A stretch of DNA of 64,000 nucleotides, from positions 620,001-684,000 of the forward strand of contig NZ_CP102096.1 of the NCBI RefSeq assembly GCF_024582835.1. The letters are read 5' to 3'. Positions 2,347 to 41,379 of this stretch are shown one piece after another. The DNA comes from Vibrio japonicus (GTDB lineage: Bacteria > Pseudomonadota > Gammaproteobacteria > Enterobacterales > Vibrionaceae). The notes under the pieces were generated by a model that was given only the letters and a program-made list of their open reading frames with translations, was not told where the DNA came from and did no database searches. How positions within the stretch are numbered: position 1 is the stretch's first letter; the number at the start of each line of letters is the position of its first letter. A program made the translations under genes and the position numbers.

Positions 2347-3123
2347 ATGAGCGATTTAAAAGCAGCAGCACTACGTGCACTTAAGCTAATGGACCTAACA
2401 ACGCTGAATGATGATGACACTGACGCGAAGGTTATTTCTTTATGTCATGATGCAAAATCAGCGGTAGGTAACACAGCTGCAATTTGTATTTACCCTCGCT
2501 TTATTCCTATTGCTAAGAAGACACTTCGCGAGCAAGGTACACCGGAAGTTCGTATTGCAACTGTAACTAACTTCCCACATGGTAACGACGACATTGAAAT
2601 TGCAGTTGCAGAAACAAAAGCCGCTGTGGCTTACGGTGCAGACGAAGTAGACGTCGTTTTCCCATACCGCGCTCTAATGGCTGGTGATGAGAAAGTTGGC
2701 TTTGAGCTTGTTAAGCAATGTAAAGAAGCTTGTGGTGACATTCTTCTGAAAGTGATCATCGAAACGGGTGAACTGAAAGAAGAAGCTTTGATCAAGAAAG
2801 CGTCTCAAATCTGTATCGAAGCAGGTGCAGATTTCATTAAAACATCGACAGGTAAAGTGCCTGTAAACGCAACACCAGAATATGCGCGTATGATGCTTGA
2901 AGTGATTCGCGATATGGGTGTGGCTGAAACGGTTGGCTTTAAGCCAGCAGGTGGTGTACGCACGGCAGAAGATGCTGCGGCTTACCTAGCAATGGCTGAC
3001 GAAATCTTAGGTGATGATTGGGTTGATGCTCGTCACTACCGCTTTGGTGCGTCAAGCCTACTGACTAACCTATTAAATACTTTAGAAGTGACAGACGAAA
3101 CTGCTGATCCAGCAGCTTACTAG
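2347..3123 (+). CDS. deoC: Deoxyribose-phosphate aldolase
   Basis: Cleaves 2-deoxy-D-ribose 5-phosphate to glyceraldehyde 3-phosphate and acetaldehyde, the last step of deoxynucleoside catabolism in the cytoplasm. The 258 residues match the family's usual length. The Schiff-base lysine lies in FIKTSTGK (K165), with Asp102 (DEVDVVFP) and Lys199 (GFKPAGG) as the other active-site residues. CGGAG before ATG is a good ribosome site. First of deoC-deoA-deoB. Confidence 0.98.
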
Positions 3124-37054: not shown

Positions 37055-38527
37055 TTATGCTTTTTCTGGAATTGCTTCGAGTAGCGCTACCATCTGATCC
37101 CAATACAGTGAAACTGTGTCGATTTTTACCTTCTCATCCGGAGAGTGTGGGAACTTAATAGTAGGGCCAAAAGAGACCATATCCATATTTGGGTAAGGTT
37201 CTTTAAACAAACCACATTCAAGGCCCGCATGAATCACCATAATGTTCGGCTTGTGACCGTAAATGCCTTCATACATATCACGGAAGATAGCCATGATTTC
37301 TGAGTCTGCATCAGGCTTCCAGCCAGGGTAAGCACCAGAGAACACAATCTTCGCACCAGCAAGTTCAGCAACAGAAGTCAGCATGCTTTCTACTTGATTG
37401 CGGCCAGAGTCAATCAGTGAACGAACAAGACATAAAACTCGAATCTTGTCTGCTTCTGTCGTGATAACACCAACGTTAAGTGATGTTTCTACCACGCCTT
37501 CGATTTCGTCACTCATGCGAACCACGCCGTTAGGGCAAGCGTTCAGAGCAGCAATGAAACGTTGTTGATCGGCAATAGCCAGTACTTGATCTTGTGTATC
37601 AATTGCTTTGTTGAATGAGACGATGTTTGTCTCAATTTTACCGAGTTCTTGAGTCAGCAGATTAGTGTAAAACTCAAACAACTCTGCCAGTTTAGCTTCG
37701 TTTTCAGCTGGAACCGCCACAGTAACGAATGCTTCACGAGGAATGGCGTTACGTAAGCTGCCGCCACGGAATTCAATTAGGCGTAGGTCGAGTTCTTGCG
37801 CGTGGCCAGCTAAAAAGCGCGCCACCAGTTTGTTTGCGTTGCCGCGACCCGTGTGAATATCACAACCAGAGTGGCCGCCTTTTAAGCCTTTTAGGATAAG
37901 CTGACGCGTCACGTAGCCTGTTGGAAGTGCTTCGCGTTTGATGTCGAATGTCATTTCACCATCAATACCGCCCGCACAGCCCATGTATACTTCGCCTTCT
38001 TGCTCTGAGTCAGTGTTAAGAAGGATGTCACCTTCCAACCAACCAGCTTCAAGGCCAAATGCACCAGTCATGCCTGCTTCTTCATCAATAGTGAGCAGAA
38101 CTTCAATCGGGCCATGCTTGATATCTTTTGATGCCAGTACAGCAAGGCAAGATGCCATACCAATGCCGTTGTCCGCACCGAGTGTTGTGCCTTTCGCTGT
38201 GACCCATTCGCCATCGATGTATGGTTGGATAGGATCTTTGGCAAAGTCATGCTCAGTGTCTTCGTTCTTTTGCGGAACCATATCGATGTGAGCTTGAAGA
38301 ACGACCCCTTTCTTGTTTTCCATACCTTGCGTCGCAGGCTTTTTAATAAAAACGTTGCCTGTTGGATCACGACGAACTTCTAAGCCTTGTTCTTTCGCCC
38401 ACTCGATAATGTATTGAGCTAATGCTTCTTCATGCTTAGAAGGATGAGGGATAGAACAGATCTTATCGAAGAACTGCCACAATGGGGCAGGGGATAAGTT
38501 GCTGATTTCAGAATGGAATTCGGACAC
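37055..38527 (-). CDS. pepD: Aminoacyl-histidine dipeptidase (peptidase D)
   Basis: M20-family zinc dipeptidase that hydrolyses Xaa-His dipeptides such as carnosine in the cytoplasm. Zinc and catalytic motifs include LQAHIDMVPQ, TTLGADNGIG, TIDEEAGMTGAFGL and HAGLECG. I start at GTG 38527 (VSEFHSEI, 490 residues), with AAGGAG 8 bases upstream; the longer frame adds 37 unconserved residues. Confidence 0.95.
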   Translation of the reverse strand: MSEFHSEISNLSPAPLWQFFDKICSIPHPSKHEEALAQYIIEWAKEQGLEVRRDPTGNVFIKKPATQGMENKKGVVLQAHIDMVPQKNEDTEHDFAKDPIQPYIDGEWVTAKGTTLGADNGIGMASCLAVLASKDIKHGPIEVLLTIDEEAGMTGAFGLEAGWLEGDILLNTDSEQEGEVYMGCAGGIDGEMTFDIKREALPTGYVTRQLILKGLKGGHSGCDIHTGRGNANKLVARFLAGHAQELDLRLIEFRGGSLRNAIPREAFVTVAVPAENEAKLAELFEFYTNLLTQELGKIETNIVSFNKAIDTQDQVLAIADQQRFIAALNACPNGVVRMSDEIEGVVETSLNVGVITTEADKIRVLCLVRSLIDSGRNQVESMLTSVAELAGAKIVFSGAYPGWKPDADSEIMAIFRDMYEGIYGHKPNIMVIHAGLECGLFKEPYPNMDMVSFGPTIKFPHSPDEKVKIDTVSLYWDQMVALLEAIPEKA

Positions 38528-38821
38528 GGATGGCTCCTTTTTCGAACAATGCCAGATCTTATAAAGCAAATATTGGGATTTGCTAGAACAAAAAACCAAA
38601 TCTGACTTATAAATTAGAGGAACTAAGAATAGCACCACCTGAGCCTAGGTAATAGTAAAAGCAGAAACGAAAATGGTCGAAGGCATCACAGAATTTGAAC
38701 TGAATCACACACGCTGATCCGCATGAAATCTTATGGTTAAGCTCAAAATATTCGTAATGTAGTAATAATTTTGTAATTTAATTACACGGTTCATTTGATC
38801 TTAGTCACTTTATGAACTTTA

Positions 38822-38837
38822 TGTGATTTGAGTCACG
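38822..38837. promoter_or_regulatory. CRP-like binding site
   Basis: TGTGATTTGAGTCACG matches the TGTGA-N6-TCACA consensus at 9 of 10 fixed positions and sits in AT-rich flanks. Its centre is about 50 bases before the expected transcription start of the small transcript. Confidence 0.75.
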
Positions 38838-38844
38838 ATTTTTC

Positions 38845-38872
38845 TTGTAATTTAATTTCTTTAAGTTATAGT
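38845..38872 (+). promoter_or_regulatory. Promoter of the small transcript
   Basis: TTGTAA (38845-38850) and TATAGT (38867-38872) with a 16-bp spacer, just downstream of the CRP-like site. Start expected near 38879. Confidence 0.6.
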
Positions 38873-38990
38873 GGTCACAACTTCGAAAGCGAAGACAAAA
38901 TGCTCAAAGGATGAGTCCGATTTGTCGCCTCCAGGGAACCGAGAAATCAGAATTTGTTATCTATTTAACTTGATTTAGAAGGTGATGTTT

Positions 38991-39077
38991 ATGAAAGGTT
39001 TACCAAGTGCAGCGTTCTGGATAAACAGCTCTGTTTACACTAGCAGCTTTGCATACCCAACAACTTTTGGTTACTAA
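38991..39077 (+). CDS. Small protein of 28 residues in the candidate dual-function RNA
   Basis: ATG at 38991 has AAGG 8 bases upstream, an ideal ribosome site. The peptide begins MKGLPSAAFW and ends PTTFGY; it is rich in Ser, Thr and aromatic residues and has no charged residue except Lys2. No clear membrane helix. If homologous to VcdP it would act on citrate synthase; from the sequence alone the function is unknown. Confidence 0.65.
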   Translation: MKGLPSAAFWINSSVYTSSFAYPTTFGY

Positions 39078-39164
39078 CCTAAAGCTTGTAACTCTCGAAC
39101 AGTTTTGTTCACCCCTATATATTGGAATTTATTTACAGCTCCTTTTGAGCTGACATGATTCAAC

Positions 39165-39194
39165 CGCCACTCATTCATTGAGTGGCGTTTTTTT
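39165..39194 (+). terminator. Terminator of the small transcript
   Basis: CGCCACTCA-TTCAT-TGAGTGGCG, a 9-bp perfect stem, followed by seven T. Typical Rho-independent sRNA end. Confidence 0.92.
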
Positions 39195-39547: not shown

Positions 39548-40837
39548 ATGTTCGAAAAACTATTTAAACTCAGTGAAAACGGCACGAACGTGAAAACTGA
39601 GATCATCGCAGGTATGACAACCTTTTTGACGATGGCCTACATTGTATTTGTGAACCCAGCGATTTTGGCTGATACAGGTATGGACCGTGGCGCTGTCTTT
39701 GTCGCGACATGTTTGGCAGCGGCCATTGGCTGTTTCATTATGGGTTTTGTCGCTAATTACCCTATTGCTCAAGCTCCAGGTATGGGGTTAAACGCATTCT
39801 TTACGTATTCGGTTGTACTTGGCATGGGCTACACATGGCAAGTTGCATTGGCAGCCGTATTTTGCTCGGGTCTTCTTTTTATTCTTCTGAGCGTGTTTAA
39901 AATTCGTGAATGGATCATAAACTCGATTCCGCTATCGTTACGTACGGGCATTTCTGCGGGCATCGGTCTGTTCCTTGCGTTTATTGCACTGAAAAATGCA
40001 GGTATTGTTGTCGATAACCCAGCGACGCTAGTTTCTTTAGGTGCCATAACATCGGTGCCTGCTGTGCTTGCATCGGTTGGTTTCTTTATGACAATTGCTC
40101 TTGTTCATCGCGGTGTTAAAGGTGCGGTGATGATTGCGATTCTTGCGGTTACAGGCCTTGGTCTTTTGTTTGGTGATGTGCAATGGAACGGCGTGATGTC
40201 AACGCCACCAAGCATTGCGCCGACTTTTCTTCAGTTAGATTTTTCTGCTGTCTTTGAAGTTGGCATGATCTCTGTTGTATTTGCCTTCTTGTTTGTCGAT
40301 TTGTTCGATACCGCAGGTACGCTCGTTGGTGTGTCTCAAAAAGCGGGTCTAGTGGGCAAAGATGGCAAGATTCCTCGTCTTAATAAAGCGCTTCTGGCGG
40401 ATTCGACAGCAACTTCAGTCGGTGCTCTTCTAGGCACATCGAATACAACATCGTATATCGAGAGTGTTTCTGGTGTTTCTGCTGGTGGCCGCACAGGTTT
40501 GACCGCAGTTGTAGTTGGTATTTTATTCTTACTTGCACTATTCTTCTCGCCATTAGCAGGAATGATTCCAGCATACGCGACCTCTGGTGCTCTATTTTAC
40601 GTAGCTATTCTGATGCTTTCTGGCTTGGTAAGTATCGATTGGCGTGATTTAACAGAAGCGGCTCCGGTCGTAGTAACGTGTCTATTAATGCCACTGACGT
40701 TCTCTATCGCAGAAGGTATTTCTTTTGGATTTATTGCGTACGCTGCTATCAAACTGTTTAGTGGTAAAGGTCGCGGTGTATCTCTAAGTGTTTGGATTAT
40801 GTCTGCTATCTTTATCGTTAAATACATCGTCGCTTAA
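39548..40837 (+). CDS. NCS2-family purine permease (AdeP/GhxP group)
   Basis: A 429-residue inner-membrane transporter with about 12-14 hydrophobic segments. The N terminus reads TNVKTEIIAGMTTFLTMAYIVFVNP, and FLFVDLFDTAGTLVGV and GTSNTTSYIESVSGV mark the azaguanine-like NCS2 branch that carries adenine, guanine or hypoxanthine. The PurR box upstream and gpt downstream support purine base uptake. Which base is preferred cannot be told. Confidence 0.9.
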   Translation: MFEKLFKLSENGTNVKTEIIAGMTTFLTMAYIVFVNPAILADTGMDRGAVFVATCLAAAIGCFIMGFVANYPIAQAPGMGLNAFFTYSVVLGMGYTWQVALAAVFCSGLLFILLSVFKIREWIINSIPLSLRTGISAGIGLFLAFIALKNAGIVVDNPATLVSLGAITSVPAVLASVGFFMTIALVHRGVKGAVMIAILAVTGLGLLFGDVQWNGVMSTPPSIAPTFLQLDFSAVFEVGMISVVFAFLFVDLFDTAGTLVGVSQKAGLVGKDGKIPRLNKALLADSTATSVGALLGTSNTTSYIESVSGVSAGGRTGLTAVVVGILFLLALFFSPLAGMIPAYATSGALFYVAILMLSGLVSIDWRDLTEAAPVVVTCLLMPLTFSIAEGISFGFIAYAAIKLFSGKGRGVSLSVWIMSAIFIVKYIVA

Positions 40838-40914: not shown

Positions 40915-41379
40915 ATGAGCAAGAAATTCGTCATTACTTGGGACCAAATGCATGCATACTGCCGTGAGTTAGCAGCAAAACAGATGCCAGCAGAACAATG
41001 GAAAGGTATTTGGGCAGTAAGCCGAGGTGGTTTAGTTCCTGGTGCAATCCTAGCGCGTGAATTAGGTATTCGCTATGTAGATACCATCTGTATTTCTAGC
41101 TATGACCATGATCACCAACGTGATATGAGCGTTCTAAAAGCGCCAGAAGGCGATGGTGAAGGTTACCTTATTGTTGAAGATTTGGTCGATAGTGGTGATA
41201 CGGCTCGTCAGCTACGTGATATGTATCCTAAAGCGAAATTGATCGCAGTATGTGCGAAACCATCAGGTGCTGCGTTGCTTGATGACTATGTTGTGGATAT
41301 TGCTCAAGAAACTTGGATTGAACAGCCGTGGGATATGGCTATTCAGTACATTGAGCCTATCAATCGCAAGCAAAAATAA
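40915..41379 (+). CDS. gpt: Xanthine(-guanine) phosphoribosyltransferase
   Basis: Converts xanthine and guanine (hypoxanthine weakly) with PRPP to nucleotides. The 154 residues match E. coli Gpt in length; the PRPP-binding signature is [12 protein letters not shown] (85-96). It lies just after the purine permease, linking import with salvage. Confidence 0.95.

Follow-up and report, generated by a model that had tools for sequence, protein, structure and literature searches.

The interval 38822-39194 of the window (the whole 64-kb stretch of Vibrio japonicus DNA analyzed here) is, with a probability that we put at about 97% from sequence comparison, the vcdRP gene, an ortholog of the dual-function RNA published for V. 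cholerae and not a new RNA. We regard it as a well-supported new member of a known RNA, and the assignment goes beyond the VcdRP-likeness claimed in the earlier note to the ortholog itself because synteny, the order of parts and the sequence agree. The orthology, the coding ORF, the seed, the terminator and the CRP site of V. japonicus are all shown by sequence, and by analogy with V. cholerae it is quite likely that both activities, that of the RNA and that of the peptide, are present in V. japonicus too.

The locus is flanked upstream by pepD (37055..38530, start approximate, minus strand; TIGR01893 605 bits, above the cut-off; PRK15026 722 bits, below the cut-off of 991) and downstream by a permease of the Xan_ur_permease family (39548..40837, plus strand; PF00860 182.8 bits), which bears out the position between pepD and a purine permease given in the earlier note. 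In the V. japonicus genome vcdRP is single-copy, with one place recovered in a whole-genome search with the 381-base interval, and a vcdRP elsewhere in the genome, which the earlier note had named as a refuting outcome, was not found. We take vc2279 of V. cholerae to be pepD. Published vcdRP sits between vc2278 and vc2279 (PMC8672173), and the same type of position, with pepD and a PF00860 permease on the two sides, is found in V. japonicus as in V. harveyi, V. anguillarum and V. splendidus, which are among the seven Vibrio species in which vcdRP has been aligned (PMC8672173). The loci of these three species share their neighbors, leader motif, ORF and CCCC with V. japonicus, and identity to the predicted V. 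japonicus transcript, gaps left out, amounts to 82% in V. harveyi (252 aligned columns), 86% in V. anguillarum (246), 89% in V. splendidus (303) and 94% in V. nereis (313). Our locus set comprised 110 Vibrionaceae loci from the better peptide matches, with 111 ORFs and two loci each from two genomes; pepD upstream and the permease downstream recur at 106 of the 110, the exceptions being two loci where the permease was not found (L066, L068) and two that lie at a different genomic place (L067, L071). Beyond the permease, at 40915-41379 of the window, is a xanthine phosphoribosyltransferase gene (333 bits against the Tet(34) model, cut-off 345), probably an ordinary housekeeping gene.

The V. 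cholerae RNA, formerly named Vcr082, is described as 306 nt long; its ORF of 29 codons occupies nt 104-193, and four cytosines close a conserved region (PMC8672173). VvdRP, the V. vulnificus ortholog, is expressed (PMC9737408). V. cholerae was absent among the 70 named loci from a narrower peptide-alignment scan, and our comparison with that species is by published description. The published coordinates suit six related loci whose ORF encodes 29 aa: an ORF beginning at nt 104 places the transcription start just after the -10 box and the ORF end at nt 193, and the T-runs of these loci end at nt 303 to 323. Rfam scans of the interval gave chance-level matches only, with no described RNA family matched.

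The predicted CRP site, TGTGATTTGAGTCACG (TGTGA-N6-TCACG, 38822..38837), departs at 1 of 10 positions from the consensus TGTGA-N6-TCACA and lies, as in published vcdRP, upstream of the -35 box (TTGTAA, 38845..38850, plus strand), which is kept in the leader alignment. A 16-bp spacer separates the latter from the -10 box (TATAGT, 38867..38872, plus strand), and the transcription start is predicted near 38879 from the sequence, the 29-aa-ORF loci and the published ORF coordinate nt 104. Both the near-perfect CRP site and the -35/-10 pair had been described in the earlier note, and both stand. CRP sites with ≤2 mismatches were present in 70/85 related loci vs 2/85 mononucleotide-shuffled ones, and were poorer (5/12) in the VcdR-only loci described below. 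In V. cholerae, CRP is reported to repress vcdRP (PMC8672173).

The vcdP ORF, MKGLPSAAFWINSSVYTSSFAYPTTFGY, extends from ATG 38991 to TAA 39077 (38991..39077, plus strand; 28 codons plus stop), and a conserved Shine-Dalgarno (SD) sequence, AAGGTG (38979..38984, plus strand), stands 6 nt before the ATG, in keeping with the 28-codon frame and ribosome site claimed earlier. It belongs to a Vibrionaceae peptide family under purifying selection: for 49 distinct MKGL-type ORFs of Vibrionaceae, pN/pS is 0.37 in frame vs 1.28 and 0.87 when the frame is shifted, and 1/100 column shuffles gave a value as low; conservation of the frame across Vibrio, which had been suggested as a check, is therefore observed. 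The internal residues F20, Y22 and G27 are invariant in 32 aligned peptides. At a lenient E of 10, 170/197 Vibrionaceae genomes gave a peptide match, weak and probably false ones included. Weaker matches outside the four families considered here, some with internal stops, were taken for chance. In published vcdRP, too, a conserved small ORF of 28-29 codons lies midway along the RNA, V. cholerae VcdP being compared by description; that peptide binds citrate synthase and activates it (PMC8672173).

The V. japonicus RNA folds better than 100/100 dinucleotide shuffles (z = -3.51). Downstream of the ORF, on the plus strand, its minimum-energy fold has a GAAC/GUUC hairpin (39097..39110) before the seed, followed by the VcdR pairing region GUUCACCCCUAUA (39107..39119), with CCCC at 39112-39115, in agreement with the published seed description. 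The strong terminator of the earlier note is an intrinsic one, CGCCACTC/GAGTGGCG plus 7 T (39166..39194, plus strand; read from the sequence and similar in 36 sequences), so that V. japonicus has the vcdRP arrangement of four cytosines 3' of the ORF and then a Rho-independent terminator. CCCC follows within 167 nt of the stop in 107/111 ORFs vs 29% of shuffled stretches, a range that in L079 meets it only beyond the terminator. The invariance of CCCC inside alignment A4 is partly built in, because its 3' regions were chosen for having CCCC.

VcdR represses ptsG, nagE, treB and ptsHI in V. cholerae (PMC8672173). In V. japonicus, this published PTS link is clear for nagE only, because the pairing of the other targets is undistinguished from a background of 57 longest-ATG ORFs of the window. 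The translation start of nagE (TIGR01998, 687 bits) carries UAUAGGGGGAAC, which is complementary to GUUC-A-CCCCUAUA of VcdR; the duplex of -25.2 kcal/mol was matched by 0/57 window genes and fell to -14.9, weaker by 10.3 kcal/mol, upon an in-silico change of the seed. The same change weakened ptsH by 4.8 kcal/mol and did not weaken ptsG, and pairing as good was found in 12/57 background genes for ptsG, 11/57 for ptsH, 5/57 for the sucrose/trehalose-type IIBC of L235 and 31/57 for mtlA. No clear treB was identified in the genome. We also noted GAACGGGGAAC just before the start of mtlA (L236, mannitol PTS), which could pair with GUUC and CCCC of VcdR, with a duplex energy not above background.

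HexR-type palindromes form a second set of candidate promoter elements. The upstream copy, TGTAATTTAATTACA (38772..38786), is a perfect TGTAAT-N3-ATTACA and the sole one in the window; the second, TGTAATTTAATTTCT (38846..38860), has 2 mismatches and overlaps the -35 box, the spacing between the two being 74 bp. TGTAATTAAATTACA has been predicted as the motif that HexR recognizes in V. parahaemolyticus (PMC11906056). In the whole genome of 4.2 Mb, a perfect copy stands at three places vs none for the backwards control, and a hexR gene is present (546 bits). Over 76 Vibrionaceae loci, sites with up to 2 mismatches averaged 1.66 per locus vs 0.05 in dinucleotide shuffles, with a site of ≤1 mismatch in 67/76 and two or more of ≤2 mismatches in 50/76. 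When 18 loci were inspected with up to 3 mismatches, the two palindromes were 72-75 bp apart in 12, and 53, 64 and 84 bp apart in three, the remaining three having no pair. VcdR-only loci retained a site with ≤1 mismatch in 9/12 cases, and among the loci of three further families (f2, f11 and f25, see below) such sites were absent from f2 (0/9) and f25 (0/9) and present in 1/2 of f11. We consider it probable, judging from these sites, that HexR binds the vcdRP promoter. The second perfect palindrome of the genome (C1:556860; L270 ~1961) lies between gltB (partial in the piece read) and a divergent ORF, and the third (C2:20879; L271 ~1980) is several hundred bases ahead of an ORF predicted to be lipoprotein-like. 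The gltB-side copy is in line with the HexR regulon of Vibrionales, which is predicted to include glutamate biosynthesis (PMC5343134).

Neither these palindromes nor the GGA-hairpin leader, the most conserved part of vcdRP, was mentioned in the earlier note. On the plus strand, the leader comprises a 5'-terminal hairpin (CUUCG/CGAAG, 38881..38894; from the minimum-energy fold, with similar CUUC/GAAG repeats noted by visual inspection of numerous relatives), hairpin 1 (38902..38916), with GGA 38909-38911 in its loop, and hairpin 2 (CUC-CAGGGAACC-GAG, 38929..38943), with GGA 38935-38937; its consensus reads GCUC-loop-GAG(U/C), then CUCCANGGAACYGAG. Mean pairwise identity over 75 representative loci (L099 left out) was 0.785 for 41 nt of leader vs 0.628 for the ORF. 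The hairpin-2 unit reached 0.932, compared with 0.590 in the peptide and 0.326 in the part of the leader between the element and the SD. The strict CUCCANGGAACYGAG precedes 109/111 ORFs, with L034 (one base shorter) and L099 as exceptions, and a relaxed hairpin-2 motif matched 110/111 loci. Thirteen of the 15 hairpin-2 positions are invariant in 49 sequences located with the relaxed motif, and such invariance inside alignment A1 is partly built in because its elements were chosen by that motif, a reservation from which the 109/111 count is free. Covariation is uninformative for hairpin 2 because its stem never varies. Hairpin 1, which is absent from the single-sequence minimum-energy fold, covaries: 98.5% of cells are paired, with 14 double changes vs 3.4 in shuffles (0/500, relatedness uncorrected), and its GGA is present in 75/75 loci.

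The leader thus has two GGA motifs in adjacent hairpin loops (38902-38916 and 38929-38943, the former via covariation), a feature of CsrA targets. CsrA of V. cholerae requires a pair of neighboring GGA stem-loops, and positive control is consistent with an SD that lacks GGA (PMC11633198); CsrA recognizes GGA loops, and ymdA and moaA of E. coli are CsrA-activated leaders (PMC7652899). A csrA gene is present in the V. japonicus genome. Across 76 Vibrionaceae leaders, ANGGA occurs 1.92 times per leader on average vs 0.72 expected, and 1.87 vs 0.36 when counted in hairpins; singly, 45/76 Vibrionaceae leaders beat 95% of their own shuffles in GGA hairpins, as do 4/9 of f2, 2/2 of f11 and 9/9 of f25. 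Eight Vibrionaceae leaders have one hairpin ANGGA and no other, mostly because their hairpin 1 is GCUCAGGA or similar. Some Photobacterium-type leaders have a third GGA unit. Such a unit occurs in the leaders of L076, L078 and L095, and in L110, where it falls outside a hairpin by the criterion used.

A GUCGCCU stretch of the leader (38924..38930, plus strand) is complementary to the SD region AGGUGAU (38980-38986), with a duplex of -9.5 kcal/mol, and over 86 leaders a leader and its own SD pair at -8.12 kcal/mol on average vs -7.72 when swapped (0/5000 permutations as low, relatedness uncorrected), with just -2.8 kcal/mol in 3/20 leaders inspected. The SD is paired with the leader GCC(U/C) stretch in 4/10 folded leaders (L066, L094, L095, L156) and not in the other six, including V. 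japonicus, in which the SD and the beginning of the coding sequence pair in the minimum-energy fold. From the evidence of the GGA hairpins we incline to the view that CsrA binds the vcdRP leader, and we give activation of VcdP synthesis, rather than repression, a chance somewhat below even. The part of a CsrA paper covered here (PMC7858070) does not mention VC2278 or VC2279.

Ranked second is the explanation that the conserved leader is a metabolite-binding riboswitch and not a CsrA site, as might be expected from a nearly invariant hairpin 2 (the 13/15 positions above, in sequences located by the relaxed motif) and from a leader that can pair with the SD, a common riboswitch layout. However, in the f25 leaders (9 read of 12 fetched) a hairpin-2-like unit stands before the hairpin-1-like unit, the reverse of the order in Vibrionaceae, and the former is doubled in 8/9 loci (single in L148). 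Together with the third GGA unit of Photobacterium-type leaders, this repetition and reordering fits an array of repeated protein-binding sites and hardly an aptamer, and the absence of an Rfam match also speaks against a riboswitch, which we judge unlikely.

We find it less likely still that the leader provides, with its GCCUCC, a second trans-acting seed for the SD regions of other mRNAs. CCUCC is conserved in the leader and resembles the 16S anti-SD, both of which would suit such a seed. On the other hand, terminal segments of 156 and 87 nt are enough for the four targets examined in V. cholerae (PMC8672173), and the motif is absent from the 12 VcdR-only loci and kept by VcdP loci that have no seed.

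The distribution of the parts among Vibrionaceae was examined with a leader model (R1) and a seed-plus-terminator model (R2), which matched 161/197 and 147/197 genomes, respectively; because R2-negative genomes of g3 and g10 often retain C-rich seeds, the absence of an R2 match does not equal the absence of a seed. A VcdP-like ORF follows the leader in 16/16 R1 loci fetched beyond the 110, a divergent one in L242. Twelve genomes, all of g1, the genus of V. japonicus, have R2 without R1 or a convincing peptide match. All 12 of these VcdR-only loci (L258-L269) have the pepD and permease neighbors and CCCC, and in the 12/12 read there was no strict leader motif and no accepted VcdP-like ORF. L259 has a weakly matching VcdP-like frame (E 0.0057) that lacks an ATG and continues into the start of the permease, and we rejected it as chance. 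At L099, the ORF is cut short by an early stop and the GGA of hairpin 2 is lost, the seed and terminator being kept and R1 still matching the genome (E 2.2e-6). L063 has leader, ORF and terminator and no CCCC, as do second vcdP-like copies that lie elsewhere in two g8 genomes (L067 in G146, L071 in G022), and L062 (G170, ~2483-3023) shows tandem leader-plus-vcdP units and then one shared seed and terminator. From the VcdR-only, seed-less and tandem loci, we conclude that the leader accompanies the peptide at nearly every locus read and that the seed can exist without either, which suggests that the two functions of vcdRP are separable modules with further control elements. Published work reports seed and ORF as conserved in all species tested (PMC8672173).

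Considering that such states exist, namely the 12 VcdR-only loci, L099 with its early stop and retained seed and terminator, and the seed-less L063, L067, L071 and nine f2 loci, the RNA or the peptide might be the sole functional part in V. japonicus as well. The ORF, leader, SD, seed and terminator are, however, all intact in this species and agree with the conserved forms, and we hold a single function to be very improbable. That the ORF and the terminator lie between pepD and the permease by chance and form no gene, for which the short length alone would speak, is refuted by conservation, selection, synteny and covariation.

Beyond Vibrionaceae, VcdP-like peptides with GGA-type leaders are predicted from their sequences in three further families, f2, f11 and f25, where f2/g14 as Shewanella and f25/g47 as Aeromonas are guesses of ours. 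Among 295 genomes of the order, R1 also matched 11 genomes of f2/g14 and 2 of f11/g23, figures that are counts of matching genomes and not shares. In the nine f2 loci read, the VcdP-like peptide ends in KFTYPRHxGY and the terminator is not preceded by CCCC. A peptide such as MQGIYCDLFWNRRGIYTGNFVYPREFGY is encoded at both f11 loci, which also carry a GUUCAUCCCUA stretch. The peptide profile, run over 394 genomes of the order, matched 21 genomes of f25/g47 (E 1e-5 to 0.06, weak singly). In the nine f25 loci read, a CRP-like site is present, the leader is the reordered one, and the peptide is of the type MSGSNSTYWFAQSLYTQGFSYPNPYASRR. Of the loci checked for neighbors, pepD adjoins the two of f11 and all five of f25, and was not beside the five of f2 (within about 1.5 kb either side). 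In a class-level draw, the V. japonicus genome alone matched (1/369) at E 0.001, a limit that would miss most f25 matches too.

Overall, the explanation that we consider best, and very likely, is a vcdRP gene with the regulation known from V. cholerae, to which we add the HexR and CsrA readings. By inference from the V. cholerae work, cAMP-CRP would repress vcdRP, and with glucose-type sugars plentiful an RNA of about 316 nt would be made; its CCCC region would pair with PTS mRNAs, here most clearly nagE, lowering sugar uptake, and the 28-aa VcdP would bind citrate synthase and raise its activity. In addition, HexR may control the promoter via the palindrome pair, of which one copy sits over the -35. 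CsrA may bind the two GGA leader hairpins and control VcdP synthesis, perhaps by freeing the SD region that pairs with the leader GUCGCCU. We give even odds to a broader evolutionary reading. In it, VcdP would be an old small-protein module within the order, made up of a leader gated by CsrA and a peptide that tunes citrate synthase, and found in Vibrionaceae and three other families, sometimes alone or duplicated; VcdR would be a second module able to persist alone, and vcdRP would join both under CRP, HexR and CsrA, one transcript thereby reading three carbon signals (cAMP, the HexR ligand and the Csr system).

Compared with known systems, V. japonicus vcdRP shares its position, its CRP site and the order of ORF, CCCC seed and terminator with VcdRP of V. 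cholerae and differs in host species; the predicted transcript is about 316 nt vs 306 nt and the peptide 28 vs 29 aa (PMC8672173). The V. cholerae transcript of ~306 nt is Hfq-bound and processed by RNase E. SgrS/SgrT of enteric bacteria is likewise a dual-function RNA with an ORF upstream of the pairing region and represses PTS mRNAs, and differs in the action of its peptide and in transcriptional control (PMC8672173). Like the vcdRP leader with its two putative sites, ymdA and moaA of E. coli (PMC7652899) and toxR of V. cholerae (PMC11633198) have at least two CsrA sites, and the SD of ymdA and moaA is thought to be sequestered (PMC7652899), as proposed for vcdRP, whose link to CsrA is, in contrast to these three, predicted only. 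The HexR regulon of Vibrionales shares the TGTAATTAAATTACA-type palindrome and the connection to central carbon metabolism, and differs in that no small RNA is named as a HexR target in the portion of the PMC5343134 text examined. According to the main vcdRP study, the RNA contains several elements of high conservation (PMC8672173), and its alignment figure may for that reason show the leader; the portion of its text covered here contains no CsrA, HexR, GGA, Photobacterium, Shewanella or Aeromonas. No published link between VcdRP and CsrA was found in the texts of an open-access literature collection, and the putative CsrA reading of the leader, the HexR-type sites, the modular loss and gain, and the apparent wider distribution go beyond what we found in print.

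Here, our results confirm that one of the dual-function RNAs known from bacteria has a counterpart in another species. They also add natural dissections of vcdRP, with RNA only, peptide only and tandem forms, to the joint conservation reported for all tested species (PMC8672173). The leader and the promoter yield testable predictions for separate control of the peptide and the RNA, by CsrA on the former and by HexR on the latter, and the VcdP-like peptides of other families provide material for finding the residues that contact citrate synthase.
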